64,000 bases of DNA from Methylomonas albis (GTDB lineage: Bacteria > Pseudomonadota > Gammaproteobacteria > Methylococcales > Methylomonadaceae). Position 1 is the first letter of the stretch. Every line of letters begins with the position of its first letter. Both the position numbers and the translations under genes were made by a program. Below are positions 13,009 to 33,686 of the stretch, one piece after another. The DNA is taken from assembly GCF_014850955.1 (NCBI RefSeq), contig NZ_JACXSS010000001.1, positions 868,001-932,000 on the forward strand, written 5' to 3'. Below the pieces are notes generated by a model. The model was given only the letters and a program-made list of their open reading frames with translations. It did not search any database and was not told the DNA's origin.

Positions 13009-13224
13009 ATGACCGACGAAGAACTCAAAAAACTGGAAAAAGAAGTAAAGAAAAATAAACGTATGGCCAATGAGGCAGCGTCGGTACTCCACGATTTGAT
13101 CGAGGACAAACTGCCGGATGCCTATGGCGAACTGATGGGCATCGCGCAGGCAACTTATGATGCTTGCAAAGCCTGGGATGAAGCCAATAAGAAATTTTTG
13201 GCTGCCAGCAGCGAATCGGCTTAG
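13009..13224 (+). CDS. CCE_0567-family nif protein (DUF683)
   Basis: A 71-residue, highly charged helical protein of the CCE_0567/DUF683 family, which sits between the DUF269 gene and a nif ferredoxin in many nif clusters. The cyanobacterial member forms a helical bundle reported to bind metal. The lysine-rich N-terminal helix (ELKKLEKEVKKNKRMANEA) is the family signature. It starts 8 bases after DUF269 with a GAGGTGAG ribosome site. Confidence 0.9.
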   Translation: MTDEELKKLEKEVKKNKRMANEAASVLHDLIEDKLPDAYGELMGIAQATYDACKAWDEANKKFLAASSESA

Positions 13225-13233
13225 GAGGCGAGT

Positions 13234-13545
13234 ATGAGCGAATTTGTAACCGGTGTTACTTATGGCGGCACAGTTTGGACGCCTTCGTACGTTACCGATA
13301 TTAACCAGCGTACCTGTATCGGCTGCGGCCGTTGTTTCAAGGTTTGTCCACGCGACGTATTCGACTTGGTGGAAAAAGACGAATCGCTTGCCGAAGCATT
13401 TGAGGACGACTACGGCGATTTTGAAGATGACGACAACACCATGGTGATGAGCCTGAAAAACGCGTCTGACTGTATCGGTTGCGAGGCGTGCTCCAAGGTT
13501 TGCCCTAAGGACTGTTTTACGCATCAGCATAAAGAAGCTGCTTAA
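13234..13545 (+). CDS. fdxB: Nif-specific ferredoxin III (2[4Fe-4S])
   Basis: Low-potential electron carrier predicted to serve nitrogenase or FeMo-cofactor assembly. The 103-residue protein has two [4Fe-4S] motifs, CIGCGRCFKVCP and CIGCEACSKVCP, separated by a long acidic insert (EAFEDDYGDFEDDD), which is typical of the ferredoxin III nif-specific family. It follows the CCE_0567-type gene by 9 bases with a GGAGG ribosome site. Confidence 0.93.
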   Translation: MSEFVTGVTYGGTVWTPSYVTDINQRTCIGCGRCFKVCPRDVFDLVEKDESLAEAFEDDYGDFEDDDNTMVMSLKNASDCIGCEACSKVCPKDCFTHQHKEAA

Positions 13546-13568
13546 ACAGCTTTAGTAGTTTGGGTAGG

Positions 13569-13590
13569 GTGGGCACCGACGTGTGCCCAC
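13569..13590. repeat. Hairpin after fdxB
   Basis: GTGGGCAC (13569-13576) and GTGCCCAC (13583-13590) form a perfect 8-bp stem with a 6-base loop, 24 bases after the fdxB stop. There is no T-run. It may stabilise or partly terminate the nifENX-fdxB message before the next gene. Confidence 0.5.
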
Positions 13591-13763
13591 GCGGTCAGCG
13601 GTATATCTACATCTAAACTGATGGTGGATTTTACAGACCGGCTGTCGCGATATGTTTCTGCGGATAAGCAAAGAAATGTACCTTGCCTGTCGGTGCGAGA
13701 ACACACATTCAAATACCTGTCGCGATAGCGACACCCATTTCATTTCAAAAAAGGAAAGCTATC

Positions 13764-14087
13764 ATGCCGCGTCCCGATAAACACGTATTCGTTTGTACTC
13801 AAGCTCGTCCGCAAGGTCATCCGCGCGGCTCTTGTAGCGCCAGCGGCTGTGCCGAAGTGATGAATGAGTTTATGAACCAAATCCAGGCTCGGAATCTGTT
13901 CGAGAAAATTGGTTTAACTAACACCGGTTGCATGGGGCCTTGCATGCTCGGACCCAGCGTTTTGGTCTATCCGGAAGGCGTTATGTACGGTAAGGTGACC
14001 AAAGACGACGTGGCGACCATCATCGATCAACATTTGTTGGGCGGTACGCCGGTCGAGGCTTTGGTTGCGCCTGCCGAGGTTTGGTAA
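13764..14087 (+). CDS. Thioredoxin-like [2Fe-2S] ferredoxin
   Basis: A 107-residue (2Fe-2S) ferredoxin of the thioredoxin-like fold. Four cysteines in the pattern expected for the cluster are visible: C in VFVCTQAR, C in RGSCSASGC, then C in TGCMGPC. Proteins of this type are common in nif clusters (Azotobacter FeSII/FdxD-like types), where they act in electron transfer or nitrogenase protection; which applies here is not shown by the sequence. It lies 218 bases after fdxB, with an AAAGGAAAG ribosome site. The start is the ATG at 13764. Confidence 0.85.
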   Translation: MPRPDKHVFVCTQARPQGHPRGSCSASGCAEVMNEFMNQIQARNLFEKIGLTNTGCMGPCMLGPSVLVYPEGVMYGKVTKDDVATIIDQHLLGGTPVEALVAPAEVW

Positions 14088-14090
14088 ACC

Positions 14091-14597
14091 ATGAGTCAGC
14101 TCGGCTTTTTTGAAGAGCGGGTTTTATTCAGTCCGGATGTGCCGGAAGAAGTGAATAAACTGCTACAGATGGCAGTGGCCGCCAGCCATGCCGACAGGCC
14201 CTTGGCGGAAAAGTATTTTAAACAGGCGCAAGCTTTGGATAGCACTTGTCTGCAAACCTATTTTGCTCTGTACAAATTCTATTTTTACCAAGGCCGTCTG
14301 CTGGAAGCCGAGTGCGAGGTGATGGCTGCGCTGGCCGAGGCCGCGCGTCAGGGCGGTTTTCCGGCTGACTATCGGCAGCTGGGACGAGAGCTGGGTCAGT
14401 GGGACATGTATGTCAGCGACATCACCTTGTTTTATCTGTATAGCTTAAAAGCTCTGGCGTTTATCAAGCTGCGGCGGCAACTGGACGCGGAAGCGCAATC
14501 GATTCTGGTACTGATGCGGGCACTCGATCCGGAAGACCGTTCCGGCGCGTCGGTGATCATGGATTTGGCCGCCGCGGTGATGGAGGATGCCGCATGA
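14091..14597 (+). CDS. TPR-like nif-cluster protein of unknown function
   Basis: A 168-residue, probably all-helical cytosolic protein with TPR-like helical pairs (ADRPLAEKYFKQAQALD, then CLQTYFALYKFYFYQGRLLEAE). It has no catalytic motif or cysteine pattern. It starts four bases after the ferredoxin and its stop overlaps the next gene by four bases (ATGA), so it is firmly part of the nif operon. A scaffold or adaptor role is a guess. Confidence 0.75.
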   Translation: MSQLGFFEERVLFSPDVPEEVNKLLQMAVAASHADRPLAEKYFKQAQALDSTCLQTYFALYKFYFYQGRLLEAECEVMAALAEAARQGGFPADYRQLGRELGQWDMYVSDITLFYLYSLKALAFIKLRRQLDAEAQSILVLMRALDPEDRSGASVIMDLAAAVMEDAA

Positions 14598-14974
14598 CCG
14601 CTAGCAGCATCAGCGAACATGTCGAGGCCAAACGGGTTTTCGGCGAGACCGTTTGTCAACGCATTACAGAGAATATCGTCAAGCTGGGTTTCCCGTTGCA
14701 AACAGAACTTAGTTTGCCGAAATTCGATAGCGCCGAGTTCAGTTTAGTGACCGACCCGTTTACCCAAACTCAGGACCTGGTCGGTTACTGGTATAGCAGT
14801 AGTAAGCAGCGCATCGGCCAGATCAAATTTCATGGCGACGGCAGTTTTTATGCCGAATACGACGTTGTGCAGCCGCACCCAAGCAAAAAGCAATGGTTCG
14901 TCGAAGCAATCAATGCCTGGGGGCAGCAAGACAACATCAAAACCGAAGCAAAATTGCTGGACATCCCGCAATAA
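14594..14974 (+). CDS. Conserved nif-operon protein of unknown function
   Basis: A 126-residue soluble protein I do not recognise. It looks beta-rich in the middle (LVGYWYSSSKQRIGQIKFHG, SFYAEYDVV) and has no cofactor motif; its single cysteine is near residue 20. It overlaps the preceding TPR-like gene by four bases and precedes the DUF364 gene by nine, so it is translationally coupled in the operon. Confidence 0.7.
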   Translation: MTASSISEHVEAKRVFGETVCQRITENIVKLGFPLQTELSLPKFDSAEFSLVTDPFTQTQDLVGYWYSSSKQRIGQIKFHGDGSFYAEYDVVQPHPSKKQWFVEAINAWGQQDNIKTEAKLLDIPQ

Positions 14975-14983
14975 GGGGGGGCA

Positions 14984-15946
14984 ATGGCTAACCCAAAACG
15001 TTTGTACGAACTGCTGCTGGATTATTGCAGTAGCGATGCCGTGGTGGACAACCTGATGATAGGCTTGGTGTGGACCGTGTGCCAATGCAAGGGCAAAGCG
15101 ACCGCCGGCTTAGCGATGAGTCCCGGTCAAAGCACGCGCACCTTGCCGTGGTCCGGCACTTTGGGCGGCAAGCCGGTCACCGATCTGGCCGCCTGGATCA
15201 CCGAATGGGAGCCCTACAAGGCCACAGTGGCGATGGCGGCGATCAATAGCTGCATCAATGCCCGGCCCTTGCCGGAATCGGTGGTGCTGGACAGTCACGA
15301 CGAACACGCCAACCTGGCGGTGTTCGATTATTTTCTGCCGCAATTGCAAGGCAAAAATGTGGTGGTGATCGGCCGGTATCCGGGTATCGAGCGCTATCAA
15401 GACAAAATGCATTTAACTATTTTGGAACGGCAGCCGTCCGCTGCCGATTTGCCGGATTCGGCATGCGAGTTTTTGCTGCCGCAAGCCGACTGGGTGTTTC
15501 TGACTGCCAGCAGTATTCCGAATAAAACCTTTCCGCGTTTGGCAGAGCTATCCAGTCACGCTAAAACGGTATTGATGGGGCCGACGGTGCCCTGGCTGCC
15601 GCAGTTACACGAGTTCGGTATCGATTATCTGGCCGGCGTGGAAATTGTCGATCAGGAAGCCTTGTATCACACCGCTGCCCAAGGCGGTGGCGTGCGCATT
15701 TTTAACAACGGCTTACGCTATCGCGTCGCGGAACTGGCGCCGCAAAGCAGTATCAGCTGGTTGAAACAGCAAATCGCCGATTGTTTTACCGAACGGACCC
15801 AGCTCACCGAGGCGATGGAACAATGGTATCGCGATGGCAATAAGGCGCGCTTTCCGCATTACCCCTTGCTGGACCAGATCAACAGCCGGTTATCGCACCT
15901 GGATAGCAGTTTTAAATCGCTGTGGGACAACTATGCCGCTGGGTAG
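14984..15946 (+). CDS. DUF4213/DUF364 putative heavy-metal chelation protein
   Basis: A 320-residue cytosolic protein of the DUF4213 plus DUF364 architecture. The N-terminal part (about 1-110) covers DUF4213, including NLMIGLVWTVCQCKG. The C-terminal part (about 115-260) is a Rossmann-like DUF364 domain with GKNVVVIGRYPG, then LPQADWVFLTASSIPNKTF and VLMGPTVPWLP. The family is called putative heavy-metal chelation from structural work; no reaction is proven. Its place inside a nif operon suggests handling of a metal or metallocofactor, which is inference. A short C-terminal extension follows the domain. Confidence 0.82.
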   Translation: MANPKRLYELLLDYCSSDAVVDNLMIGLVWTVCQCKGKATAGLAMSPGQSTRTLPWSGTLGGKPVTDLAAWITEWEPYKATVAMAAINSCINARPLPESVVLDSHDEHANLAVFDYFLPQLQGKNVVVIGRYPGIERYQDKMHLTILERQPSAADLPDSACEFLLPQADWVFLTASSIPNKTFPRLAELSSHAKTVLMGPTVPWLPQLHEFGIDYLAGVEIVDQEALYHTAAQGGGVRIFNNGLRYRVAELAPQSSISWLKQQIADCFTERTQLTEAMEQWYRDGNKARFPHYPLLDQINSRLSHLDSSFKSLWDNYAAG

Positions 15947-15949
15947 TGC

Positions 15950-16402
15950 ATGAATATTGCAGTGCCGGAAGTGTTCGCAAGGCATAGATTGTTGTTGATG
16001 TACAAAGGCGATATCAGCGCCCTAACCATGTTTGCGCAACAGGCCGCCGGTAGCGTGTGCTTTCCGCAATCCTTGCCGCCGCTGTCCAGCGCTTTGGACG
16101 AAGATGCCACGGTTGAGGAAAGCAAAGTGGTCATACATCCGGCAACCCTGGTTAGCGCAATCAATCGGATGCTAGGGTTCGATAACGATTTACTGTATGT
16201 CGAAGCCGGTTACCAAGAATACGTCGATACCCCACGAGGGATCGTCACCGTTTACATGGCGCGTTTCAAACTATTGGATCCGCCGCATCGCTTGATGCAA
16301 CCCCTGGGCTGTCACATGCGCACGTTACCGGAATTACGCGGCCGGCCACCGGCCGAGATGGAGTTGCTGCGCCGCGCTTACACGAAAATGATGGAGGGCT
16401 AA
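15950..16402 (+). CDS. Nif-operon protein of unknown function
   Basis: A 150-residue soluble protein not recognised. It has no signal peptide or membrane helix. Its most distinctive parts are FDNDLLYVEAGYQEYVDTP and the C-terminal PPHRLMQPLGCHMRTLPEL, which contains a His/Cys/His group. It starts three bases after the DUF364 gene and ends one base before the GlcF-like gene, so the three form one tightly packed unit. Confidence 0.7.
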   Translation: MNIAVPEVFARHRLLLMYKGDISALTMFAQQAAGSVCFPQSLPPLSSALDEDATVEESKVVIHPATLVSAINRMLGFDNDLLYVEAGYQEYVDTPRGIVTVYMARFKLLDPPHRLMQPLGCHMRTLPELRGRPPAEMELLRRAYTKMMEG

Positions 16403-16403
16403 C

Positions 16404-17678
16404 ATGTTCGATATTATGGATTTTGGCAGTGGCGAGTTCACGGGTGATAGCAGCCCAGATATGCCCGTGCCTAGCGGTCCGTATATCCCGGAAGCCAGCG
16501 ACTGCATGCGTTGTGGTATGTGCGTCAGTAGCTGCCCAACCTTCCGTTTATTCGAAATCGATGCGGAAACGCCCCGGCAACGGATCCGCACCATCAGTAA
16601 AGTATTGGTCGAGGATGCGCCGATCAGCGCCGAAGAACGCGCTCATCTGGACAACTGCCTACAGTGCCGGGCTTGCGAAACTGCCTGTCCCAGCAGGATG
16701 AGTTACGGCTCTTTGTTTGACCAAGCCAGAGCGAAATTACAGCAATCGAGTTCGCGGCCTTGGTTAGCCAAACTGGCTCTGTATTTTATCGAGCACAAAC
16801 GCCGGCGGCGCATGTTGTTGCCCTTGTTGTCTTTGTATTTACGTTCCGGTTTACAAAAACCGCTAAGAGCCAGCGGCTTGCTGCGCAAATTAAAATTAGC
16901 TACTGCCGAAAGTTTACTTAACGAACCGGCCTTGGGCAGTTTGGCCGGGATTTATCCGGTCGGCAGGCGGCAGCGGCAGCGCGGACGAGTAGCCTTGTTT
17001 ACCGGTTGTCTGGCCGAGCATTTCGACCGCGCCACCCAACGCGCCGCTATCAAATTACTCAATACCATAGGCTACGAAGTCGTGGTGCCGGAAGGCCAGG
17101 GCTGTTGCGGGGCGATTCATCAGCACAACGGCTGCTCCGCGCAAATCTTAAAAGATAAAAATATCGAAGCGTTTTACCAGCTGGAAGTGGAAGCGGTGAT
17201 TTATGTCGCCAGCGGTTGCGGTGCCATGCTTACTGAATATCAAGGCGACGATAGCGAAACCGCCGGCTGGTTCGGCCGCAGCTTGCAAGACATCAACGAA
17301 TTTTTATTGGCGCATTGGCCGGACACGCTGGAACCGGCGGCTTCCAATTTAAACGTCGCGGTACACGAGCCTTGCAGCCAGCGCAATGTGTTGAAAAACG
17401 GTCGCGCCGTTCACGAGCTGTTGCGGAAAATCCCCGGTTTGAACATCGAAGCCTTGCCGGACAATCAACTCTGCTGCGGTGCCGGCGGCAGCTATATGCT
17501 CAGCCACCCCGACAATGCTCAGCAACTGCGCAATGCCAAGCGCCAGGCCATTGAAGGCTCCGGTGCGGATGTGATGGTCAGCAGCAATTTCAGCTGCGCG
17601 TTTTACCTCAATGCCGAGCGCGCCGAGACTGCGCGGAAACTGGTGCACCCGATACGCTTGTTGGCGGATAGGGTGTAA
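16404..17678 (+). CDS. GlcF/HdrD-like Fe-S oxidoreductase subunit
   Basis: A 424-residue iron-sulfur protein related to glycolate oxidase subunit GlcF and heterodisulfide-reductase-type proteins. Two [4Fe-4S] motifs (CMRCGMCVSSCP near 33-44 and CLQCRACETACP near 78-89) are followed by two CCG (cysteine-rich) domains with GQGCCGAIHQHNG and LCCGAGGSYML. Such proteins move electrons between a flavin partner and quinone or a disulfide. No glcD or glcE partner is nearby. Here it closes the nif operon, one base after the previous gene, so a role in electron supply to nitrogenase or cofactor assembly is possible. Plain glycolate oxidation is the alternative. Confidence 0.85.
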   Translation: MFDIMDFGSGEFTGDSSPDMPVPSGPYIPEASDCMRCGMCVSSCPTFRLFEIDAETPRQRIRTISKVLVEDAPISAEERAHLDNCLQCRACETACPSRMSYGSLFDQARAKLQQSSSRPWLAKLALYFIEHKRRRRMLLPLLSLYLRSGLQKPLRASGLLRKLKLATAESLLNEPALGSLAGIYPVGRRQRQRGRVALFTGCLAEHFDRATQRAAIKLLNTIGYEVVVPEGQGCCGAIHQHNGCSAQILKDKNIEAFYQLEVEAVIYVASGCGAMLTEYQGDDSETAGWFGRSLQDINEFLLAHWPDTLEPAASNLNVAVHEPCSQRNVLKNGRAVHELLRKIPGLNIEALPDNQLCCGAGGSYMLSHPDNAQQLRNAKRQAIEGSGADVMVSSNFSCAFYLNAERAETARKLVHPIRLLADRV

Positions 17679-19140
17679 TTTAGTCCTTGGTCAAACTTTA
17701 CATGCAATGGCCAAGTTAGAACCCTTATTGCCAAATAAGCTGTCATGACAAAAGGTGCGGTAATCGTACCCTTCGAAGCCAACATTCCTCCGGCTGCGCT
17801 ATCGCTAATTGGCGCGAACTGTCCCGCCCTTTTGTGTTTAGAGCAATTGCTTTCTAATTTACAAACCTAACATTGCTTGCTCGAAGCCGGCGCATAGCGG
17901 CGGGCCCAGCTTCACTGTCGTTCAGCAACCGACCCCTCGCCCGTGATCGGTATTGATGGACGCCGAATCGCTAAGCGGCCAAGATCGAGCACAATTTCGG
18001 AATGATTTAGCTTGGAAGCCGAATGACCGAGATAATTTCTTGAACGATTCGGTCCAGAGCTCGAATGACCGAGATAATTTCTCGAATAATTCAGCCCTGA
18101 GCTCGGACGACCGAGATAATTTCTTGAACGATTCAGTTCAGAGCTCGAACGATCAAGTAATTTTCTGGAATCATCTAGTTCGAAACTCGAGTAATTTAGA
18201 AATTTTCTTGAACAATCAAGCTCAGAACGACATTGGCCGAGATATTTTCTCCATCGTTCTCTCTCCGAGCTGAATCATTGGAGCTCGACACTTAAATGAT
18301 CGAGTCTGACTAGGTGCACCTGTTTGGCCCGCAGAATGGTGGATAAAATTGCCCAACCGACGTTTAACATCGGGTTTTAACCGGGGGCCGACAATTAGGT
18401 GTTAATCGACAATTAATTGCTAAGCTTGCTCTAGGGTCGAACGGCAAAACCGACCCGTTGCTGCCATTCAAGCTGGTCAGCCTTCTATGTCTGCCGTGAT
18501 TCGTATAGTCGCCATTCAAATTTTGAAACGACAAAAATTAGGGCTATCGGCTTGGGTATTTTTTATCGCCAATAAATTATAAATTCGCCCAACGGCAACA
18601 GACGACCAAGTCCTCTCCAATTGCCAATTTAGTTCTCAATGCATCCGTATCTGATTTTGACTGCGTTCTGCACCGAAGTGGATTAATGATTCATTGGCCA
18701 GTCGTTTGGGATTCGAAATCGTGATCAGCACCAAACGGCTACGCCTATTCTGCTTTGTTCGCTTCGGCAACTGAATTGGTGGAGACAAATGACCGGCAGC
18801 GCTATGCACCACCAAGGGTGTAGAGGACTCAGAGACATAAATCTGCTCTTGCCACTGCCGAGAAAGCCGGTGATGAGGATGGCCGACGGGGACTTTTATC
18901 AATGACATAAATAGCGGTATGGTTTGGATAATTGAACGATGAATTTTAAACACACCAATTGCACAATGGTGTGCTTCAATAACACCGTTATTCAGTTTCA
19001 TACGGTAATGTTGACACCGCAAACTGACAACATTCATTCGTTAGTTTAACGAACACGGGAGACAAGAGCAGCGCTACTCAAACGCGTGGCGCTACGTTTC
19101 ATAAGTCTGGCGGCTGTTGTCGTCGGAAGTAATTCAAGTA
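17679..19140 (+). other. Gene-poor region between nif operon and NACHT gene
   Basis: About 1.45 kb with no gene I can support. It contains a 42-bp minisatellite (17983-18276) and a minus-strand open frame (18636-19037) with no recognisable domain. The nif cluster ends on its left and foreign-looking defence genes begin on its right, so it marks the border of an accessory island. Confidence 0.55.
17983..18276. repeat. 42-bp tandem repeat, about seven units
   Basis: Units start at 17983, 18025, 18067, 18109, 18151, 18193 and 18235. The three from 18025 to 18150 are the most alike (core GACCGAGATAATTTCT, then GAGCTCG); the outer units are degenerate. Because 42 is a multiple of three, one frame stays open (17956-18273), giving a 14-residue DRDNF-type repeat. 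No signal peptide or ribosome site supports expression. Confidence 0.75.
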
Positions 19141-22100
19141 ATGCCAAAAATCATGGACTACGATTTATCCCGCCTCTCTACCCGCTCTTTCGAGCAACTG
19201 ATTCAATCCTTGGCGCATTCGGTCGTCGGCCCCGGTATTGTTATTTTCGGCGACGGGCCGGACGGCGGGCGCGAAGCCACCTTCGAAGGAAACATAGCCT
19301 TTCCCAATAACGCCGAGCGTTGGCAGGGTTACGGCATTGTTCAGGCGAAATTCAAGCAGCGCCCGGAAGGTAGCGGAAAGGACGGCGATTGGGCGTTACA
19401 AGAACTCAAAGACGAACTCAAAAAATTCACCTCGGCTGAGAGCAAGCTTAAGAAACCCGAATATTACATTTTTGCCACCAACGTGGTGCTGACGCCGGTT
19501 GCCGAGGTAGGCGGCAAGGACAAGTTAACTCGTCATTTGGAGAGTCAAAAAGTAAAGTTAGGGCTTAAGGACTTTCGCATTTGGGATTACGACCAATTGC
19601 GGGTCATGTTGGATGGCTGCGCCGATGTGCGTACGACTTATACGGCCTGGATCACAGCAGGCGACGTGTTGGCGGAATTGATAAAGATGATGCAGCCGCA
19701 ACGCCACAATTTTCGTGAGGTCATGACGGGCTACCTGCAAAAAGAGCTGTGCGCCGATCAATATGTCAATCTCAATCAAGCAGGGCACCAGCAGAAAGAT
19801 CGCATTCTACTGGCGCAAGTCTTTGTCGATTTGCCGACCGGGGATCAGCTTCAACCTCATGGGGTTATTGCCGGTCTCTTGGAAATCGGATCGTGGAATT
19901 TAAGCCCCAAAGCCACGCCGCATGAAGCATTACTAAATTTAAGTTCCAGCGCGACGTTGCCTGGTCGCGTGGTGTTTATAGGCGGCCCCGGTCAAGGTAA
20001 GACCACCCTCAGCCAATTTCTGTGTCAACTTCACCGGGTTGCGCTGTTGGACGTGGAAGATCGGCAGCTGATTTCGCCGGAGGCTAGGACGGCGTCCGCG
20101 TTAATCGTCGACCAAATTGCCCATGAAGGTTTGGAATTGCCTAGCATGCCGAGATTTCCCGTTCGGATCGTACTGAATAGCTTTGCCGCCGATTTGGCCA
20201 TCGGCAAAGCCACGTCTCTATTCGATTACCTGTTGCGACGTATCGCGCATCTGTCGGAAAGGACTTTAACAACGGACGATTTACGCGGTTGGCTGAAGGC
20301 TTATCCGTGGCTCATCGTCCTGGACGGGTTGGACGAAGTGCCGGTATCGTCGAATCGCGAGCAGGTCATTGACTCGGTGCAAAATTTTCTGATCGATGCC
20401 CAAGCTTGTAATGCCGACTTGCTATTAGTCGCCACCACCCGGCCCCAAGGGTACAACAACGATTTTTCTCCCGCTTATTACCGGCACTTCGAGTTGTTAC
20501 CGTTGGCTGTGCCTCGGGCGCTGCATTACGCCGACCGCTTGCTGGAACAGCGCTGGGGCGGCGACCGCGACAAAATCGACACCTTAACGCAACGCTTGCA
20601 GCGCGCCGGTGCCGAAGAAGCCACCGCCCGCCTGATGCGTAGCCCTTTACAAGTCACCATCATGGCGATGCTGGTGGAAAATGTCGGCCAACCGCCGCGC
20701 GAACGCTGGCGCTTGTTCAACGACTACTATGACGTGATCTACAAACGCGAACAACAGCGCGACATCCCCGCCGCCGAGCTTTTGAATTCCTATAAAGCCG
20801 ACATCGATGCAATTCACCAGCGCGTGGGATTGCGCTTGCAAACCATATCCGAACAGTCCGGCGGAACCGCTGCCCTATTGCCGCAAGCCGAGTTCGCCGA
20901 GCTGATAAAACAGCGGCTGGCGGGCGAAGGCCACGCCGGGGCAGATTGCGAACGCTTGCAAGCGGACATCGTCAACGCCTCGATCGATCGCTTGGTGTTT
21001 TTGGTGGCGCCGCAGGCGGATAAAGTGGGTTTTGAGATACGCTCACTACAGGAATTTATGGCGGCAGAGTGCTTGATGAACGGCAGCGATCAAGACGTCA
21101 GCCAACGCTTGCGTGCCATCGCGCCGGCGGCGCATTGGCGTAACGTGTTTCTATTCGCCGCCGGGCGTTGTTTTCACGAACGTCAACATTTACGCGATAC
21201 CTTGTATACCCTGTGTTGCGAGCTGAACGAGGGCGAGGGAATTGATGGCGGTGAATTGGAAAAAGCCACCCTCGCTGGATCGAGATTGGCTTTAGAAATT
21301 CTTGAAGACGGTGCTTTAGTAAAAGCACCTGCCCAGCTAAAACTATTTGCGAAACTCGCGTTGCGTTTATTGGAATTGCCTCCTTGTGAGGCTAAAGTCC
21401 GTTTGGCAAACCAATATGTTGCTTCGTTAGAAGAATGTTTTAAATCTGCGATAAAAGAACGGATGGCAACTAGCGACATCGAGCGCCGTTTAGCTGCGTG
21501 GAGCGTGTTATTACATTTGGACTGTCAAAATATAATTTGGGCCAATGAATTGGCGAGAAACAACTGGCCCAGCAATGCCGAAGAATCAATTCAAATTATT
21601 AAATCTTTATCGGGAGTCAGCAAGGGTAACTGGTTGGCGGATAAGTATGCAATGGCTATTTTGAATACTTCGCCGTTACAATCCCACTACGGAAATGAAA
21701 AAGGTTGGGCAAGAGATTGTAGTGGCTTGATCCTTCACTCAAAGGATTGGGTGAATTTTTATGGGAAATTAGAAAAAATTGACGAAACAAAAATTTGTAT
21801 TGAAGGGGTTGATGATGATCGTTTCGAGATGTCTTTTGTCCCTATTGTTGATAGTAAAGTCAGCGACCTGGATAAATCATTAAACAAAGTAGAAGCCAAT
21901 AAGCAATGGAAGTGGCTAATACAGGCGTGGAGATTTTCATTGGGCTTGGGCTGCTCAAAATCACACTTAGCGGAGTTACTTCAAGAGTTTTTTGGCTGGA
22001 CTTTAAACGAGCAAAAGTCAATTGGAAAAATGCAGAACATGCTTGCATGGCCTATTTCGGCTTGTATTTCAGCTGTTCATGCAACTGAGGAAAAAGCACA

Positions 22101-22344
22101 ATTGATTACAGCTATAAAAAAAGGAAATTTAGGCGACAAAGAAGATTGGCTGTCTGCGCAAGTTCGTTGGGAGAATGCCGGGATAACCAAAGATGACCTG
22201 AAGTTTATTCCCGAAAGAAACCTTCCTTTCGACAACCAAATTGCCAAAATTGGCTATCCTTTCGACTTGCCTGGAGCAACTATAATTTATCAGGACTCTA
22301 GAGGCTGTTGCCGTTTTGGGATGATAGCCTTGAAATCGAACTGA
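19141..22344 (+). pseudogene. NACHT NTPase with PD-(D/E)XK-like N-terminus, 5' part, IS-interrupted
   Basis: Large STAND NTPase of the bacterial NACHT (NLR-like) group, members of which abort phage infection. Residues about 1-160 look like a restriction-endonuclease-type effector, with GDGPDGGREATFEG followed by YGIVQAKFK (the D...E...QxK order of a PD-(D/E)XK nuclease). The NACHT core has Walker A GGPGQGKTT near residue 281 and Walker B LIVLDGLDEVP near 390; the conserved SLQEFMAAE stretch is near 635. The C-terminal sensor part is AT-rich. The own frame runs only to 22300, where an IS5-family element begins; the last 14 codons and stop (to 22344) are IS sequence. I chose the ATG at 19141 with GGAAG upstream; a TTG at 19117 is possible. 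The rest of the gene continues at 23156. Confidence 0.88.
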
Positions 22345-23153
22345 ATAGCCCAAATGCTTGAGTTTTTCAATCAACCTATACTCAAGCGATGCCACGACAG
22401 TTGTTTACGGATGAATACTGGAATAAATTCAAAGCCATCATGTTGAGCCTGGGGATTTATGACAAGCCTTCGCTACGACAAACGGTAGAGGGGATTTTTT
22501 ATCGCTTGCGAGTAGGCTGCCCCTGGCGAGACTTGCCTATAACGTTTGGCAAATGGAATGCCGTGTATAAACGATTCAACGCGTGGTCGCTTCAGGAAAA
22601 ATTGATGGGTATCTTTCGGGGACTGGTGGTGGAACCGGATTTGGAATGGGCATTTATCGACGGCAGTATTGTGAAGGCTCATCAACATAGTAGTGGCGCG
22701 GCCCATGAGCAGGAAACAGCCATTGGAAAATCCGTCGCGGGCAACACCACCAAAATCCATATGGCCGTTGATGCTTGCGGGCTGCCCATTCATTTCTCGG
22801 TGACGGGGGGCGAGGTGCACGACTGTAAAGAAGCGCCGGAATTGGTGGCTAAACTCCCTTTGGCTGCCCACATGATTGCTGATAAAGGCTATGACAGTGA
22901 GTCTTTACGTATTCAAATTCGAGACAAAGGGAGTGTGCCTATCATTCCTAGAAAACAGAACTCAACCATTGGGAATGACGAAATGGACTGGTGCCTCTAC
23001 AAGTATCGCCACCTCGTTGAAAATGTATTTGCGCGACTGAAACATTTCAGAGCCATCGCGACGCGATATGACAAATTGAAACGCAATTTTGAAAGTGTCG
23101 TCGCTTTGGCCTGCGCTTTCATTTGGTTGCCCATGTAAAACGGCAACAGCCCC
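22301..23153 (+). mobile_element. IS5-family insertion sequence (853 bp)
   Basis: The terminal inverted repeats agree at 16 of 17 positions: left end from 22301 and right end reading back from 23153 share GGCTGTTGCCGTTTT after G(A/G). The element is flanked by a TA repeat (22299-22300 and 23154-23155), fitting the 2-bp or TNA-type duplication of IS427/IS1031-like IS5 members. It holds one transposase gene. Removing it plus one TA restores the NACHT reading frame exactly. Confidence 0.9.
22389..23138 (+). CDS. IS5-family DDE transposase
   Basis: Intact 249-residue transposase catalysing cut-and-paste or copy movement of its element. It has the IS5-type N-terminal helix-turn-helix region (LRQTVEGIFYRLRVGCPWRD) and the catalytic triad in context: D in FIDGSIVKAHQH, D in MIADKGYDSE, and E in YRHLVENVFARLKHFR. 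Both ends and the gene are complete, so the copy may still be active and the insertion recent. Start ATG at 22389. Confidence 0.95.
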   Translation: MPRQLFTDEYWNKFKAIMLSLGIYDKPSLRQTVEGIFYRLRVGCPWRDLPITFGKWNAVYKRFNAWSLQEKLMGIFRGLVVEPDLEWAFIDGSIVKAHQHSSGAAHEQETAIGKSVAGNTTKIHMAVDACGLPIHFSVTGGEVHDCKEAPELVAKLPLAAHMIADKGYDSESLRIQIRDKGSVPIIPRKQNSTIGNDEMDWCLYKYRHLVENVFARLKHFRAIATRYDKLKRNFESVVALACAFIWLPM

Positions 23154-23155
23154 TA

Positions 23156-23898
23156 ATTTTTTCACGATGCAACAGCTATATAATATTTGGAAGTCTTTGG
23201 AACCATCTAAGGCAAAAACTAATATGGCTGGCAATGTATTGTTCGCGTTATCTGTAATGGGAGGTAAAAATGAAGTAATGAAAGACATTAATATTAATGA
23301 TATTTTTGAGTTAATTAACAATCACAACAGTAAATACTTTTCCTGGCACGTGCTTGGATCATTTCCAGAAACAGCCTGGTCTTTCGAGAGATTATATTCA
23401 GTTTTAGAGGCTTTAGAAAAAGATTCGTTCGTTTTTTATCGCGAGTACAAAACTGATAATAACTTTGTAGACAAGCTGGAACCTTTGCTGATTGCAAGCC
23501 CCAATAATGGCTGCTTGACAAGATTATTATCCATCGCCTGCTTAGTTGGACATAAAGCTAGTGTTGAGATTAAAGCCTTTCCAGGCAACTTTATTGATGA
23601 AAGATATCAATATTCTGCCTTGATTTTACGAATGTCACAGGCTGATTGGGATAAAAACGAAGCCATTCGATTAGCAGAAGCTATAATAAAACTAGCCGAA
23701 TATCAAGACGAAGCAGTCGATTCCGCGTTAAAGGTTATTGCAGCACAAAATTTAACCGGTGGAGCGGTTGAACTGTTTTTGTATCGGCTTTTCGAAGGCT
23801 TGCCAGCCAACACAAGGGAACTCCGCCACGATGTCCTGCAAGCAATGCTGGAACAACAGCGGCATCGGCAAGCGCATGTTGCCGTTCTTCCGGTTTGA
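23156..23898 (+). pseudogene. NACHT protein, 3' part separated by the IS
   Basis: C-terminal about 247 codons of the NACHT protein, now cut off from its NTPase. Across the deleted IS the frame would read YQDS-NFFTMQQLYNIW without stop or shift. The segment is helical and AT-rich up to about 23700 and looks like the continuation of the ligand-sensing repeat region. An ATG at 23167 follows the junction, but there is no ribosome site, so independent expression is doubtful. Its stop lies 6 bases before the zeta-toxin-like gene. Confidence 0.85.
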
Positions 23899-23904
23899 CC
23901 GATA

Positions 23905-24501
23905 GTGTTTAGCGCCATACCTACTTGCTGGATCATCGCCGGCCCGAACGGCGCCGGAAAAACCACCTTCGCGCTGAACTTTCTACCAACGCTGGCGGGA
24001 TGTCGGCGCTTCATCAACGCAGACTTGATTGCCGCCGGCCTGTCGCCACTGGCGCCGGAACGGCACTTGCTGGAAGCCAGCCGCTTGTTTTTACAGGAAA
24101 TCGAGCGGGGTGTAAGCGCTCGCGAGAACTTTGCTTTCGAAACGACTTTGGCGGGCCGGAGTTATCTGAAACTGATACACCGATTGCGGGTGCAAGGCTG
24201 GCGAATCGAATTGATTTATCTGGCCTTGCCCAGCGCGGAAATGTCCAGATTGCGCGTTGCGGAGCGGGTCCGTCACGGCGGTCATAACATTCCATCCGAA
24301 GACATCGTTCGCCGCTTTCCGCGCAGTCTTTATAATTTGCTTTACGAATTCGCGCCCATTGTGGACTCCACCTCGTGTTATATGAATATCAGCGGCATTC
24401 CCGAGTTGGTGTTTGAGCAAAACAAGCATCAGCCTGTAAGAATTCATCACTTGGAATACTATAGCCACCTACTAACCCAGGCCAGTCATGCAAAACTCTG
24501 A
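23905..24501 (+). CDS. Zeta-toxin/AAA-type P-loop kinase
   Basis: A 198-residue P-loop protein of the zeta toxin type; zeta toxins phosphorylate UDP-N-acetylglucosamine and block wall synthesis, though many relatives are uncharacterised. The Walker [12 protein letters not shown] is at residues 13-23, followed by [13 protein letters not shown] and [13 protein letters not shown], both typical of the family. The start is GTG at 23905, as no ATG exists before the P-loop. It begins 6 bases after the NACHT stop and overlaps a small downstream gene by 14 bases, giving a toxin-first pair. A nucleoside kinase role is the alternative. Confidence 0.82.
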
Positions 24502-24676
24502 AAATTTAACGCCCATACCGGACGCCTTCGCCATATTGGAATGCCTGCGCCAAACCGCCGCGCAAACCTTGGAACGCAAACGGCGCTTGGGGCATTATGC
24601 GGTGATTTGGCAGGATGGCGGACCAGTGTTGGTCGGCGATGACGCGCCTAAGCCCGCTGACGATTCGAGCTCGTAG
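24488..24676 (+). CDS. Small protein paired with zeta-toxin-like kinase, possible antitoxin
   Basis: A 62-residue protein ([20 protein letters not shown], then [17 protein letters not shown]) whose start lies inside the kinase gene. Small proteins with this charged helix and short beta-hairpin ending commonly follow zeta-type kinases, so an antitoxin role is likely by position. It does not look like the classic epsilon antitoxin, which precedes the toxin. Confidence 0.7.
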
Positions 24677-25230
24677 TTTTTCTACTGGCTTTAGCCATCG
24701 CGCTGTTCAATTAACCGCCCAACCTCGACTCGATATCCTTACATCAAACGCCGGGCCATATCCGCTTTGCGGGCGATCATCTTCTCGGTTAATTTTGGAG
24801 GGAGGGCGGATAAGCGGAGCGTCATCCGCCGCCTTGGGATGCCTCTCGATACATGACACTATCGCTTATGCTTCCTACGACTGCGGATGATTATATGGTG
24901 GCAAATGAAAACAGTTAGAGGTCATTGAAATTGCTTCAGCATGAGGCAGTTCTTGGCTGAACGCAGTCCGCTGTCGTCTGACCAACTCGCCGCATCCCTT
25001 CTGGAATGCCCATTCCTGGATACCAATAACACCTTCCTCAGATTGCCCCTCATCCAAAGTTAAGCCGTTCCTAATATATTCTTAATTAAACCCTCAGGCT
25101 TCCTCTCATCTTGTCTCGGTAATCTATTACCCAAGCGAATAGGGATTAATAACTCGTTCGCATCAGGTTGGGTTTCCAGGGACGGTGACCCTTAGTCATT
25201 GGATAAAGACGATTTAGGGGTTAAGCCATC
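24677..25230 (+). other. Intergenic region before the EPS operon
   Basis: No gene is seen. A small hairpin (GGCGGAT 24805-24811 with ATCCGCC 24824-24830) sits in a REP-like patch. The last 150 bases are likely to hold the EPS operon promoter and leader, but I cannot assign boxes with confidence. Confidence 0.5.
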
Positions 25231-26652
25231 ATGCCACTCGGTTTGGGAAATATTTTCAACGGGCTTTTTAAACAGTACGGTCACACGGTAATTCTGTTGC
25301 TGCGCGTCATCGACGTCGCCATGTTGTTTGCTGCCGCTTGGGTGACTCATTATTTCTGGTTGCGCGAATATATTGTGGATCAGGATTATCGGATCGTCAT
25401 TGCGCTGGGCATACTCGGCGCCATCATCTTCTTTGAAATAGGTCAGGTGTACCGGCCTTGGCGTAACGATGCGATGCGCGGCGAAATTGCCCGTATCGTC
25501 AGAGCCTGGATTTCGGCGTTAGTGGCTGTGGTGTCCATCGTCGCCTTAATCAGATTGCATTTTTGGTTCGGTTCCAGTTACCGCTGGATTGCATCCTGGG
25601 GCGTGCTGGGCTTGGCTTTTGTGTTGGTGGCTCGTGGCGTGTTGTCGCAAGTGCTGCGTTTCTTGCGGGCCCGTGGTTGGTCGCAGGGTCGTATCGTCAT
25701 GGTGGGTTTGAATCAAATGGCGGTGGCGGTGGCGCGGCAGTTGAATCATTCGTCCTGGGCCGGCCTGCAAGTGGTCGGTTATGTGGACGATAGGGGCGAT
25801 GATAGAAACTCGATTAACGATTTCGCACTGCCGCGTCTCGGTAAACTGGAAGACCTGCCAGGCATCATCGCCGCTCAAGCCATTGATGAAGTGTGGGTCG
25901 CCTATCAAGGCGAATCATTGACCGAACGTGCTCAATATCAGCTGCGCCATCTGCCGGTCAGCATCCGTTTAGTGATCGACTGTTTTGCCTTCAAACAAAG
26001 CAAATTCCTCAGTTTGAACACCGTGGCCGGCATCCCGACTCTGGATTTCTCAGTATCGCCGTTGCATGGCATCAATCGCTATATCAAGGAAATCGAAGAT
26101 CGACTTTTGGCTTTGATTTTGTTGCTGCTGATTAGCCCGCTGATGTTGATTTTGGCAGTGGGTGTGAAGCTGAGTTCGCGGGGCCCGGTGTTTTATCGCC
26201 AGGAGCGGGTGGGTTGGAATAATCGCTCATTCACGATGTTGAAATTCCGTTCGATGCCGGTGGACGCCGAAGCCAAAACCGGCGCGGTCTGGGCCAAGCC
26301 TGGTGAGAATCGGGCCACTCCTTTCGGTGCCTTCCTACGCAAAACCAGTCTGGACGAACTACCACAATTGATCAATGTGTTACGCGGCGACATGTCGCTG
26401 GTTGGTCCACGCCCCGAGCGTCCGGATTTTGTCGAAGTATTTAAAGAGCAAGTGCCTAACTACATGAAAAAACACATGGTCAAAGCCGGCATCACCGGTT
26501 GGGCGCAAGTCAACGGCTGGCGCGGCGACACCGATTTGAACCGCCGCATCGAACACGATTTGTATTACATCCAGCATTGGTCGCTGTGGTTTGATCTGGA
26601 GATCGCCTTCCGCACCGTGCTGACCGGTTTTATCAATAAAAACGCCTACTAA
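25231..26652 (+). CDS. Undecaprenyl-phosphate glucose phosphotransferase (WcaJ-like)
   Basis: Inner-membrane priming enzyme that moves a sugar phosphate, usually glucose-1-P, onto undecaprenyl phosphate to start exopolysaccharide repeat-unit assembly. The 473-residue protein has four N-terminal membrane helices, a Rossmann-like CoA-binding domain (about 145-260, [15 protein letters not shown]), a hydrophobic anchor (about 290-315), and the bacterial sugar transferase domain with [43 protein letters not shown] and [15 protein letters not shown]. It is the first gene of a long EPS operon. Confidence 0.94.
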
Positions 26653-26664
26653 GGACACGCTTAC

Positions 26665-27765
26665 ATGTTTAGATTGATTCCCATCATGCTGATCTTAACC
26701 TTGCCCGGTTGTTTCCTGGCGCCGGGCATGGATATGAATACCGATAACGGTCTGACCGAAATCGAGATGCCGATGAAAAAGGATGGGCAATTGGTCAAGG
26801 AGAAAGTCCGCATCGTGCCGATTACCGCCGATCTGATCATCGAGCGCGAGGCGAACCGTCGCCAGGCCATTAACAATTTGCCGCCGGTGGATCCCAACAA
26901 AACCAGCTACCGCATCGGCCCGCAGGATAGATTGCAAATTACCGTCTGGGAACATCCGGAACTGAACGATCCCGGCGGCGAAAAAATTGCACCGGAAATG
27001 GCCGGTAAAGTGGTGGATGAGAATGGCGACCTGTATTACCCCTATGTTGGAAGCATCCATGTCGCCGGCAAAACGGTCACGGAAGCACGCGCCGACCTGA
27101 CTCGCGAGCTGTCCAAATATTTCAAAAAGGTCAAACTCGACATTCGCGTGCTCTCCTTCCAGGCGCACCGAGTAGCGGTGGTCGGTGAAGTCGTGCGCCC
27201 CGGTGTGCAAACCATGAACGAAACGCCTTTAACCGTAGCGGAAGCTATCACCCGCGCCGGCGGCTCGACCAAGGATTCCGATTTTGCCAATGTGGCGCTG
27301 GCCCGCGACGGCAAACTCTACAAACTGGATGTGCAGGCCATGTACGAAAAAGGCCTGACCACCCAGAATTTGCTGTTGAAAGACGGTGATGTGTTGAATG
27401 TGGGCGATCAAAAGGACAGCAAGGTATTTGTGATGGGCGAGGCCAACCGCCAGCAAGCCATCCAGATCAACAAAGGCCGGATGAGTTTGTCGCAAGCCTT
27501 GGCCGAAGCGTCCGGAGTTGATTTCAATACCTCGCGGCCCGGCGACATCTACGTGATCCGCGCCGGCGATATGCAGCCGGAAATTTTCCAACTGGATGCC
27601 GAATCGCCCGACGCGATGATTCTGGCCGATCAATTTCCGCTGCAAGCGCATGACACCTTATTTATTGGTACGGCTGGCGTCACGCAATGGTCTAGGGTGC
27701 TGAACCAGATTTTACCTGGCTCGTTTACCGCAATCATGTCGCAAGCCGCGATGATGGGGATGTAA
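26665..27765 (+). CDS. Polysaccharide export lipoprotein (Wza-like)
   Basis: Outer-membrane channel component for EPS export. The 366-residue protein starts with a lipoprotein signal (ILTLPGC, Cys16). The polysaccharide export (PES) domain (YRIGPQDRLQITVWEHPEL near 91) follows, then SLBB-type repeats (VVGEVVRPGVQTMNETPLT and VFVMGEANRQQAIQI). The C-terminus is short. It starts 12 bases after the priming transferase and ends 3 bases before the Wzc gene. Confidence 0.94.
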   Translation: MFRLIPIMLILTLPGCFLAPGMDMNTDNGLTEIEMPMKKDGQLVKEKVRIVPITADLIIEREANRRQAINNLPPVDPNKTSYRIGPQDRLQITVWEHPELNDPGGEKIAPEMAGKVVDENGDLYYPYVGSIHVAGKTVTEARADLTRELSKYFKKVKLDIRVLSFQAHRVAVVGEVVRPGVQTMNETPLTVAEAITRAGGSTKDSDFANVALARDGKLYKLDVQAMYEKGLTTQNLLLKDGDVLNVGDQKDSKVFVMGEANRQQAIQINKGRMSLSQALAEASGVDFNTSRPGDIYVIRAGDMQPEIFQLDAESPDAMILADQFPLQAHDTLFIGTAGVTQWSRVLNQILPGSFTAIMSQAAMMGM

Positions 27766-27768
27766 CAG

Positions 27769-30123
27769 ATGATTTACTCACAAAACGAAGCCACGCCGGT
27801 CTTACAACCGCTGAATCAGGCGCGGATGCCAGAGCCTAGCGTCAGTATTCGCGACTACGTCGATTTGCTGATCGAAGGCCGCAAAACCATTTTCATCGCG
27901 CTGTGTTCGGTGTTGCTGGTCACCACCGTGTATCTGGTACTGGCGCCGCGCACCTACAAAGCCGATGCCTTGTTGCGGATCGATAAAAACAAGGCGCTGT
28001 TGTCTGCAACCCTGCGCAGTGAAAACAATCGAGCGCCTGCTGAAGCGGAAAGCCCGCGCGCACAACGGGAAGTGGAGATTTTGCGCTCGCGCTCGGTGCT
28101 GGGCAAAGTGGTGGATAACTTGAATTTGACCATAGAAACCGAACCCTACTTTTTTCCGTTGGTCGGCGAAACGCTTGCGCGCCGACACGATGCGCATGAC
28201 GGCATAGCTGATGCCTGGTGGGGATTCAGCCGCTGGGCTTGGGGTGGCGAAAAACTGAAAATTGCCGCGTTCAGCGTGCCCGACCGTTATCTGGAAAAAG
28301 AGTTTACCTTGATCGCGTTGGAAGCCGGGCGTTTTCAACTGCTCGACCCGCGCGGCGACGAATTGCTGGCTGGCCAAGTCGGTGAAGTGTTGAGCGCCGA
28401 GATCGGCGAGAAAACCCCGGTGACGATTAAAGTTGAAACGCTGGAAGCGCATCCGGGTACGCATTTTGAATTAACCCGCCGCACCGCGCTGTCGGCCATT
28501 GAAACATTGCAAAAGGCCTTCGCGGTCAAGGAAGTATCGAAAGACACCGATATTCTGAGCGTGGAATTGAAAGGCAGCGACCCGGAACAACTGGCTAAGT
28601 CAGTGAACGATATTGCGGCGATTTACGTCAACGCCACGGTGAATTGGGAATCGGCGGAAGCCTCGCAAAAACTGGGTTTTCTGGAAAGCCAGTTGCCCAT
28701 CGTTAAGGAGCGCCTGGAAAAAGCCGAGCAGGGTTTGAGCGCCTATCGTCAGCAACACGGCGCGGTGGATATTTCCGCCGAAGCCGAAATTCTGTTGAAA
28801 CAGGCGTCGGACATGGAAACGCTGGGCATTCAGCTCAAGCAAAAATACGACGAACAAAGCCAGCGCTTGGAATCCGAGCATCCGGACATGATTTCCACCA
28901 ATGCCCAGATTAAGCGCGTGAATAACAAGCTGGCGGCTTTGGAAAAACGCATCAAGGATTTACCGAAAACCCAGCAAAACATGGTGAGTTTGTCGCGTGA
29001 TGTGCAGGTCAATACTGAGCTGTATACCTCGTTGCTGAACAGCGCGCAGGAACAACGCATCGCTGCCGCCGGCTCCTTGGGTAATTCGCGTATCGTCGAT
29101 TTTGCGGTGACGCCGGAAAAACCTTACTGGCCCAAACCCAGCTTGTTGCTGGCCATAGCCAGCTTGCTGGGTTTGAGCTTGGGCTCGGCCTTGATTTTTC
29201 TCAGACATTCCTTGCAACGCCACGACAACTATCCGGCCTTGCTGGAATATCAAGTGGGCTTGCCCTTGTTTGCCGCGATTCCGCACAGCAAAAAGCAGCA
29301 TAAATTAGGACGCTTGTTGGGTAAGGATAAAGACAACGGTATTCTGGTCTCTCAGGATCCGCTGGATATTTCCGTCGAGTCGCTGCGCGGCCTGCGCACC
29401 ACGCTGGAAGCCACTCTGGCTCAGCACGAAAGCAAGGTGATCATGGTCAGCAGTCCGGCGCCGGGCATGGGCAAGTCTTTTGTTAGTTCTAACTTGGCGG
29501 CCTTGCTGGCCAGCATTAAAAAGCGGGTGCTGGTGATAGACGCCGACATGCGCAACGGCCGTTTGCACGATACCTTTTCAATCGGTAAGCAACCGGGTTT
29601 GTCCGATTTATTGTCCGGCCGGGCGACGCTGGGCGAAGTGATTGTCAGCTTGCCGGATGTGGGTATCGATTTGATCCCGCGAGGTAATATGGTGCTGAAT
29701 CCCGCGGAATTGCTGGTGCTGGGCGAATTGTCGGAAACCCTGGAGCAGCTGAAAAGCTTTTACAACCACATCGTCATCGATTCGCCGCCGATTCTGGGCG
29801 CCACCGACGCGGCGATTCTGGGCAAGCATGCCGACGCCACCTTCTTGGTCGTGAAAGAAGGTCGTTACACCGCGCAGGAACTGGAAGTCAGTGCCCGGCG
29901 TTTCCAACAAGTGGGCATCAAGCCCAATGGTTTCATCATCAACGACATGAAGGAAGGCTCGTCTTACTATCCGTATTACGGCTACGCCTACCAACGCGCC
30001 GACCAGGAACCGAAGGACGAATCCACCTGGAGCGATAAGTATCATGCAGTCGGCGACTGGTTGGGTAAGCAACTGGATAGAGAGTTGTTGCCGGTTCCCA
30101 GCGAAACTGACGAGCGAGTTTAA
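27769..30123 (+). CDS. Polysaccharide co-polymerase / tyrosine autokinase (Wzc-like)
   Basis: Inner-membrane protein controlling EPS chain length and export, fused to a BY-kinase. The 784-residue protein has an N-terminal Wzz domain with first membrane helix (about 38-58), a long periplasmic coiled-coil, a second helix (about 455-480), and a cytoplasmic kinase with Walker A SSPAPGMGKSFVSSNLA, A' VIDADMRNGRLHD and B HIVIDSPP. A tyrosine-rich SYYPYYGYAY stretch near 725-735 is the likely autophosphorylation cluster. It lies between wza-like and wzy-like genes, as in Wzx/Wzy systems. Confidence 0.94.
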   Translation: MIYSQNEATPVLQPLNQARMPEPSVSIRDYVDLLIEGRKTIFIALCSVLLVTTVYLVLAPRTYKADALLRIDKNKALLSATLRSENNRAPAEAESPRAQREVEILRSRSVLGKVVDNLNLTIETEPYFFPLVGETLARRHDAHDGIADAWWGFSRWAWGGEKLKIAAFSVPDRYLEKEFTLIALEAGRFQLLDPRGDELLAGQVGEVLSAEIGEKTPVTIKVETLEAHPGTHFELTRRTALSAIETLQKAFAVKEVSKDTDILSVELKGSDPEQLAKSVNDIAAIYVNATVNWESAEASQKLGFLESQLPIVKERLEKAEQGLSAYRQQHGAVDISAEAEILLKQASDMETLGIQLKQKYDEQSQRLESEHPDMISTNAQIKRVNNKLAALEKRIKDLPKTQQNMVSLSRDVQVNTELYTSLLNSAQEQRIAAAGSLGNSRIVDFAVTPEKPYWPKPSLLLAIASLLGLSLGSALIFLRHSLQRHDNYPALLEYQVGLPLFAAIPHSKKQHKLGRLLGKDKDNGILVSQDPLDISVESLRGLRTTLEATLAQHESKVIMVSSPAPGMGKSFVSSNLAALLASIKKRVLVIDADMRNGRLHDTFSIGKQPGLSDLLSGRATLGEVIVSLPDVGIDLIPRGNMVLNPAELLVLGELSETLEQLKSFYNHIVIDSPPILGATDAAILGKHADATFLVVKEGRYTAQELEVSARRFQQVGIKPNGFIINDMKEGSSYYPYYGYAYQRADQEPKDESTWSDKYHAVGDWLGKQLDRELLPVPSETDERV

Positions 30124-30131
30124 AAACGCCG

Positions 30132-31385: not shown

Positions 31386-31402
31386 CCATCAATAGTCCGT
31401 AT

Positions 31403-32722: not shown

Positions 32723-32741
32723 GCGTGACAAGGTGGAGACG

Positions 32742-33686
32742 ATGACATACGCAACAATTACAACAGAGACTTACGGCGCCGTGCTGCACGAATGCGTGGC
32801 TTGCGGCGGGGGAAAAATCGGTTTTTGGCGGCAAAAAGACTATCTATACACCGACAGTGCCAGCGGCAAGGCGTTTCAGATTTATCGCTGCGATTGCTGC
32901 GGCACCGGGTTTTTGAATCAGCCGCCACATCGGCAATGGTTGCAAGCCATCTATCAATACTCCGGTCAGGCACTGACGCAGGCTATTACCCTGGATGAAG
33001 TATTGGACAGAGAAGCGGTATTTCCTAACTGCACCGTGGACGCTAAGCGCATGGCGCTGCAGGCCGACACGTTGAACAAATCCGGCAATCAGCAGGCTTT
33101 GGATATTGGTTCCGGGTTTGGCTTTTATACCCGCGCTTTGCGCCTGTTGGGTTATAGCACCGTCAGTATCAATCCCGGTCAGTATGAAAATCGGGTGTTC
33201 CAGGATTTAAACGGTGACGAGCCTTTGCCCATCATGTTTGAGCAGTATCAGACGGAGCAAGCCTTTGGGGTGGTGGTCATGTCGCAGGTGTTGGAACACA
33301 TACTGGAACCGGATCGCACTATTGCCAAGGTCGCCGGTTTGCTGGAAAGCTGCGGTGTGCTGGCGTGTGCGGTACCGAACTACGCGTCGTTTTTGGTCAA
33401 ACTGCTGGGCACCAAGGAGAACGCCTGTCTGTGGGTGCCGGAACACGTCAATTACTTTACCGAGCAAGGTCTGAAAAGTTTGCTGGAACGCAATGGCTTA
33501 AAGGTGATTAAAACCGAGCAAGTCACCCGAATTCAATATAACGCGCTATCCAGGCGTTTGGGTCTGAGTGGCGGCTTGGCAAGGCTGGCTGACACCTTGG
33601 TGAAGTATGCGCAGATACCGTTCGCAGCATTAATGGATGTGTTGGGCTGGGGCATTTACCTGAACGTTTATGCGGTGAAGCAATAA
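32742..33686 (+). CDS. Class I SAM-dependent methyltransferase
   Basis: A 314-residue cytosolic methyltransferase of the Methyltransf_23 type. The N-terminal part has a zinc-like cysteine pattern (CVACGGGKIGF and CDCCGTGFL). The SAM-binding motif is ALDIGSGFGFYTRALR, followed by VVVMSQVLEHILEPD and VPNYAS. It could methylate a sugar or a lipid-linked intermediate of the EPS. I chose the ATG at 32742, which has a GGTGGAG ribosome site, over earlier ATGs overlapping the flippase gene. Confidence 0.85.
   Translation: MTYATITTETYGAVLHECVACGGGKIGFWRQKDYLYTDSASGKAFQIYRCDCCGTGFLNQPPHRQWLQAIYQYSGQALTQAITLDEVLDREAVFPNCTVDAKRMALQADTLNKSGNQQALDIGSGFGFYTRALRLLGYSTVSINPGQYENRVFQDLNGDEPLPIMFEQYQTEQAFGVVVMSQVLEHILEPDRTIAKVAGLLESCGVLACAVPNYASFLVKLLGTKENACLWVPEHVNYFTEQGLKSLLERNGLKVIKTEQVTRIQYNALSRRLGLSGGLARLADTLVKYAQIPFAALMDVLGWGIYLNVYAVKQ

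Follow-up and report, generated by a model that had tools for sequence, protein, structure and literature searches.

Probable inactivation of an NLR-related defence gene of Methylomonas albis by a recent IS5-family insertion in its sensor-coding part

The window analysed here, a 64,000-nucleotide stretch of the genome of the methane-consuming bacterium Methylomonas albis (contig NZ_JACXSS010000001.1, positions 868,001 to 932,000), contains a long nuclease-NACHT gene that is cut in two by an insertion sequence (IS). The 5′ part of the broken gene (19153..22300, + strand) encodes a product 88% identical in amino acid sequence over 1050 residues to that of Methylomonas koyamae (locus L031), and has no stop before the IS. 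The IS itself, an IS5-family element of 853 bp (22301..23153, +), is flanked by a left (22299..22300) and a right (23154..23155) copy of TA, and is followed by the 3′ part of the gene (23155..23898, +), which encodes the remaining sensor and the C-terminal tail and is 96% identical to M. koyamae over 246 residues. We conclude that this is very probably an NLR-related defence gene, encoding a predicted Mrr-like nuclease, a NACHT switch and an alpha-solenoid sensor, that was inactivated by the recent insertion of an active IS into its sensor-coding part.

The arms of the IS (22299-22317 and 23137-23155, TA included) are inverted repeats with 95% complementarity, and its transposase open reading frame (ORF; 22389..23138, +; 249 amino acids) is of the DDE type (DDE_Tnp_1, E = 4.6e-22; DUF4096, E = 8.2e-19). 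The 22301-23153 element combines the features by which the IS5 family is recognised, namely a DDE transposase with DUF4096, terminal inverted repeats and a short target duplication. It shares these features, with TA on both sides, with the IS5-family elements that duplicate TA (the IS427-like group), to which it is likened here by description; it differs in its 853-bp length and its single transposase ORF.

The IS plus one TA measures 855 bp, or 3 × 285, and the right half of the gene lies in the same frame as the left. When this frame is read through the IS, the first stop falls at base 42 of the element (22342-22344) and the last at 23077, and the frame is then free of stops from 23080 to the end of the gene at 23896-23898. 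Because all internal stops lie inside the IS, no further damage is visible in the gene. These results bear out the first-pass annotation, made from the letters of the window alone, which had described a nuclease-type bacterial NACHT gene split by an 853-bp IS5-family element with exact frame restoration and no other damage. Its product of about 1300 residues needs partial revision: the rejoining of the halves stands, but the start at position 19141 is probably not the right one. Because the ATG starts of four relatives (M. koyamae and loci L033, L108 and L111) align with the second ATG of the window at 19153 (MDYD...), the latter is the likelier start, and the uninterrupted protein would then count 1296 rather than 1300 residues.

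An uninterrupted allele, which the first-pass annotation had proposed to seek in relatives, was found in the sister species. In M. koyamae R-45383 the gene encodes 1296 amino acids and the insertion site carries one TA (L031:13148-13165), so that ...ACTC-TA-ATTTTTTCACG... in M. koyamae corresponds to ACTC-TA-[IS]-TA-ATTTTTTCACG in the window. Searched separately, the two halves match the M. koyamae gene at L031 10001-13150 (88%) and 13157-13894 (96%). Seven uninterrupted relatives have lengths of 1296-1314 amino acids, and the 3′ part alone has homologues in 4 of 236 other genomes of the family, with identities of 39-96%; it has no match in the more distant relatives L033 and L022, though those proteins are equally long. 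The idea that homologues stop where the IS sits was rejected, since they continue past it, and the first-pass proposal also withstood the complementary check for homology of the 3′ part.

The insertion is real in the assembly and recent. The 5.40-Mb, two-contig genome of M. albis holds seven complete copies of the IS, five of them identical, including the copy in the NACHT gene, one with a single mismatch and one at 98%, and it is this identity of five of the seven that marks the event as recent, as had been proposed. Matches at E <= 1e-50 occur in 13 of 37 genomes of the genus, that of M. albis counted, and are absent from the M. koyamae genome at the same threshold. An undamaged gene and a recently active IS would also be expected of a reversible switch, in which precise excision of the IS together with one TA restores the gene in part of the population. 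We regard such a switch as scarcely credible: a length that is a multiple of three arises by chance one time in three and is irrelevant to exact excision, the flanking repeats are just 2 bp long, and all seven complete copies are simple insertions flanked by TA. Reactivation by precise excision, which the first-pass annotation had considered possible, gains no support here and is unlikely at high frequency.

Closer examination of the protein shows a tripartite order of effector, NACHT and sensor, in which sensing is assigned to the C-terminus by inference. A putative Mrr-like PD-(D/E)XK nuclease domain (19153..19752, +) carries D37 (codon 19261-19263), Q64 (19342-19344) and K66 (19348-19350), which are identical in all nine sequences compared; E14 is shared by seven of the eight that cover its position. 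The D...QxK arrangement, with Q64-x-K66, is presumably the PD-(D/E)XK active-site motif. These conserved residues lie on a predicted alpha-beta core, and the order of helices and strands in the model of this region is consistent with the PD-(D/E)XK fold; PADLOC models matching the region are PDC-S73 (E = 4.4e-8, residues 5-190) and Aga_REase-TIR (E = 8.7e-8, residues 5-165). The central module has the P-loop (GGPGQGKTT), the Walker B motif (DGLDE; 19981..20337 from P-loop to Walker B, +) and the fold of a NACHT-type STAND NTPase, and its best structural matches are NOD2, NLRC4 and NLRP3. The structure models cover residues 1-690 and 600-1296. In place of C-terminal leucine-rich repeats, of which no family was found by Pfam scans of the window halves or of four relatives, the protein has a predicted alpha-solenoid of about 550 residues; the part of this variable sensor before the IS (21373..22300, +) was delimited by the identity profile, synonymous divergence (dS) and the structure model. 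Nor was NCH1 found in the Pfam scans at E <= 0.05, the presence of that model in the library being unconfirmed.

Several observations weigh against this assignment. The Mrr_cat family is matched weakly, in two of eight sequences with a best E of 0.0096; the PADLOC nuclease match extends to three of four relatives and is missing from L022; no solved nuclease was matched by sequence profile; and Pfam NACHT falls under the curated cut-off in the left half of the window gene, as it does in each of the four relatives scanned. The nuclease region was modelled as part of residues 1-690, and that model has middling confidence (predicted local distance difference test, pLDDT, 74; predicted template modelling score, pTM, 0.59). 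As to a defence setting, three of ten ORFs neighbouring the relatives match PADLOC models and seven do not. Finally, a truncated product might still fold, as the break at model residue 450/451 comes after a low-confidence loop (444-448) and before the next helix. The earlier identification as a nuclease-type bacterial NACHT protein is supported.

Proteins of this kind are already known. PMC12169576 describes bNACHT25 and bNACHT32, clade 6 proteins tested in Escherichia coli, as having PD-(D/E)XK DNase N-termini, in which an active-site change removes defence, and reports that infection leads to DNA degradation. They resemble the M. albis protein in this N-terminus, the central NACHT and a helical C-terminus as the sensing part; the window-type C-terminus differs in being a solenoid with a swapped sensor, and the likeness is one of described domain plan. 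A second parallel is provided by the proteins of a P4-satellite hotspot, which also unite an Mrr-type nuclease (Mrr_cat), a STAND NTPase and C-terminal repeats (PMC9122126). Those proteins reside on phage satellites, whereas the window gene is chromosomal and has a gene for a zeta-like kinase as its neighbour. A search of 50,697 phage records with the M. koyamae protein gave no match, and a search of viral contigs with the alignment likewise gave none. Avs3 of the AVAST systems is a nuclease-STAND-TPR sensor with the same plan of effector, STAND switch and large helical sensor, and Avs3 (8dgc) appears in the Foldseek list at E = 1.9e-5; the ATPase module of the window protein is nearer to the NACHT of animal NLRs, and its length of about 1300 residues compares with about 2000 in the listed Avs3 chains.

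By analogy with relatives of tested function, the intact protein would wait with a nucleotide in its NACHT pocket until the solenoid detects infection; the NACHT would then oligomerise, and degradation of DNA by the nuclease would halt growth of the infected cell. The present allele can give only about 1063 residues (1067 if counted from 19141), of which 14 are foreign, and the final 247 of the sensor half are missing. Because these residues are lacking, the product of the split allele is most likely non-functional. An adaptive split, in which a truncated protein with nuclease, NACHT and over half of the sensor still provides working or altered defence and the right half is dispensable, would fit the position of the break beside a predicted loop and a left half without other damage. 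It appears improbable, because all seven uninterrupted relatives retain the missing part in length, and because the insertion, judged by the identical IS copies, is too recent for the lack of damage to imply selection.

The analysis also brought up three features beyond the first-pass annotation: a mosaic sensor, an adjoining kinase gene and a nonsense codon in the copy of Methylomonas sp. WSC-7, which lies at the same chromosomal site. Around the gene, the window resembles WSC-7. One 150-bp interval of the upstream flank near 19150 is 90% identical to WSC-7 and four such intervals downstream of 24650 are 87-95% identical, as against 37-53% to M. koyamae on both sides, and blocks common to the window and WSC-7 extend, with gaps, from 13649 to 33054. 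Residues 1-740, the chassis, are 92-94% identical to WSC-7 by region; identity falls to 51% over residues 741-1235, which are instead 93% identical to M. koyamae. Divergence from M. koyamae at synonymous sites is only 0.06 in this sensor segment, whereas the nuclease, linker and NACHT part have dS values of 0.16, 0.99 and 0.41, respectively; a dS of 3.68 is near saturation and was taken only as high. The chassis differs from M. koyamae at 66 of 297 fourfold sites and the sensor at 5 of 148 (p = 3e-8); the corresponding counts against WSC-7 are 57 of 322 and 53 of 81 (p = 3e-16). Since selection on proteins alone would not shift synonymous sites in this way, fast protein evolution was rejected as the sole cause of the divergence from WSC-7, and we conclude that the sensor was exchanged by recombination. 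On these comparisons the gene is a mosaic, with a chassis and chromosomal site of WSC-7 type and a sensor half of M. koyamae type.

The last 61 residues are nearer to M. koyamae (dS 0.09) than to WSC-7 (dS 0.75), which counts against a sharp downstream breakpoint. The exchanged segment ends somewhere after residue 1235 and before the kinase gene, perhaps only where the NACHT gene itself ends. The sensor is of M. koyamae type to the left and to the right of the IS, and M. koyamae lacks the element; we infer from this that the exchange most likely preceded the insertion. In wider comparisons, too, the sensor is the fast-changing part. In 100-residue blocks, four more distant relatives are 35-83% identical to M. 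koyamae before residue 800 and 11-42% beyond it, and of the best 15 of 50 plasmid relatives, 13 match no further than residue 760, the other two reaching 789 and 868.

In two species, one chassis occupies a shared chromosomal site but bears different sensors, while a third species has the window's sensor in other surroundings; such natural pairs permit a direct test of which part sets phage range. Retroelements have been reported to diversify putative bacterial sensors (PMC10907252). Literature on bacterial NLR and NACHT proteins, on IS and defence genes, on sensor recombination and on Methylomonas defence contained, at the level of titles and abstracts and mostly without subscription papers, no report of this gene or of sensor exchange in bNACHT proteins, an absence that is accordingly unproven. 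Sensor exchange is the part worth following. It has wider interest because bacterial NLR-related proteins are related to animal inflammasome receptors.

Loss of the gene seems to recur. In the WSC-7 copy, GAG has become TAG at codon 18, the position of E14, and the annotation of a distant relative on a Rhodococcus qingshengii plasmid (L115:2998-7138) shows two pieces with an IS3-family transposase gene between them. Together with the window IS these make three independent breaks, which are no more than suggestive of recurrent loss. Such breaks could mean that the gene is lost because it is costly or autoreactive, or because its target has gone, the IS having been selected as a loss-of-function event. 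The three breaks, set beside seven uninterrupted copies among the nine full-length genome copies inspected (a count that leaves out G199, where the gene spans two contig ends, L034, cut by a contig end, and the plasmid relatives, of which four were inspected), lend this account some weight. We nonetheless consider it doubtful, as three events are few without a rate for comparable genes, defence genes that are seldom needed could be lost neutrally with the same appearance, and the stop in WSC-7 rests on one base of a draft assembly, where translation may also start downstream. The fresh IS offers a defence loss that can be set beside an intact allele, undisturbed by further decay.

Combining exchange and loss, we tentatively propose, at somewhat under even odds, that genes of this lineage combine a constant chassis with a sensor cassette that can be exchanged. 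The cassette, running from residue 741 or so to about residue 1235 or the gene end, would be swapped wholesale between species by recombination. Conserved sequence on either side would guide the swap: the chassis upstream, and the conserved gene end with the kinase gene downstream. A resident gene could thereby change its target in one step, and the IS and the nonsense codon would record repeated loss once the target is gone.

Six bases after the NACHT stop lies the gene of a small zeta-toxin-like P-loop kinase (23905..24501, +; Zeta_toxin, E = 3.9e-8). It is 94% identical at the amino acid level in M. koyamae, shows a ratio of nonsynonymous to synonymous divergence (dN/dS) of 0.08-0.13, and has a same-length counterpart after the NACHT gene in M. 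koyamae and WSC-7. Among the Methylomonas copies, the three closest thus have the kinase gene next to the NACHT gene; the kinase was rejected as a fixed partner of the family, being beside the gene in these three only and without a match at E <= 1e-4 in L033 and L107-L112, some of which are short loci. NACHT and kinase genes apparently travel together as one module (19149..24651, +), since blastn blocks at 19149-22300 and 23153-24651 are all that M. koyamae shares, in different surroundings, within the 23 kb compared.

The module occupies a variable chromosomal slot (17679..25230) that has a GlcF-like Fe-S/CCG-domain gene on one side and a sugar-transferase gene on the other. Both flanks lie within 10 kb of each other in 10 of the 37 genus genomes, and the slot holds NACHT and kinase genes in two (the window and WSC-7), an AbiL-like pair in one (G112) and other genes or little in seven, of which four (G113, G122, G127 and G133) had their ORFs scanned against families. 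The pair in G112 is an AbiL-like ATPase with a RloB-type partner (L100:1892-3570). Upstream of the NACHT gene, the window has a possible remnant of a CobW-like gene (18636-19037, −; CobW_C E = 0.0028, below the cut-off), and in WSC-7 (L032 4131-5340) a similar one lies beside an ORF that resembles an IS3-type transposase when six-frame translations are read by eye.

Further NACHT genes and plasmid relatives were noted. The same genome encodes an uninterrupted 1316-residue metallophosphoesterase-NACHT-leucine-rich-repeat protein (L114:3726-7676, +; G000:C1, ~737.7-741.7 kb), whose domains make it a strict-sense bacterial NLR, with an N-terminus of the phosphoesterase type. It also encodes an 831-residue relative (L113:5040-7535, +) that is 31-33% identical over the NACHT part and is preceded by a short overlapping ORF of 136 residues, as if the effector were separate or truncated. 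In Rhodococcus qingshengii (L115), a Swt1-like HEPN gene lies upstream of the split relative. A conjugative plasmid of Klebsiella variicola (L118:417-7951) carries a 1320-residue relative, with a Lit-like phage exclusion gene and a transposase gene of the IS110 family nearby.

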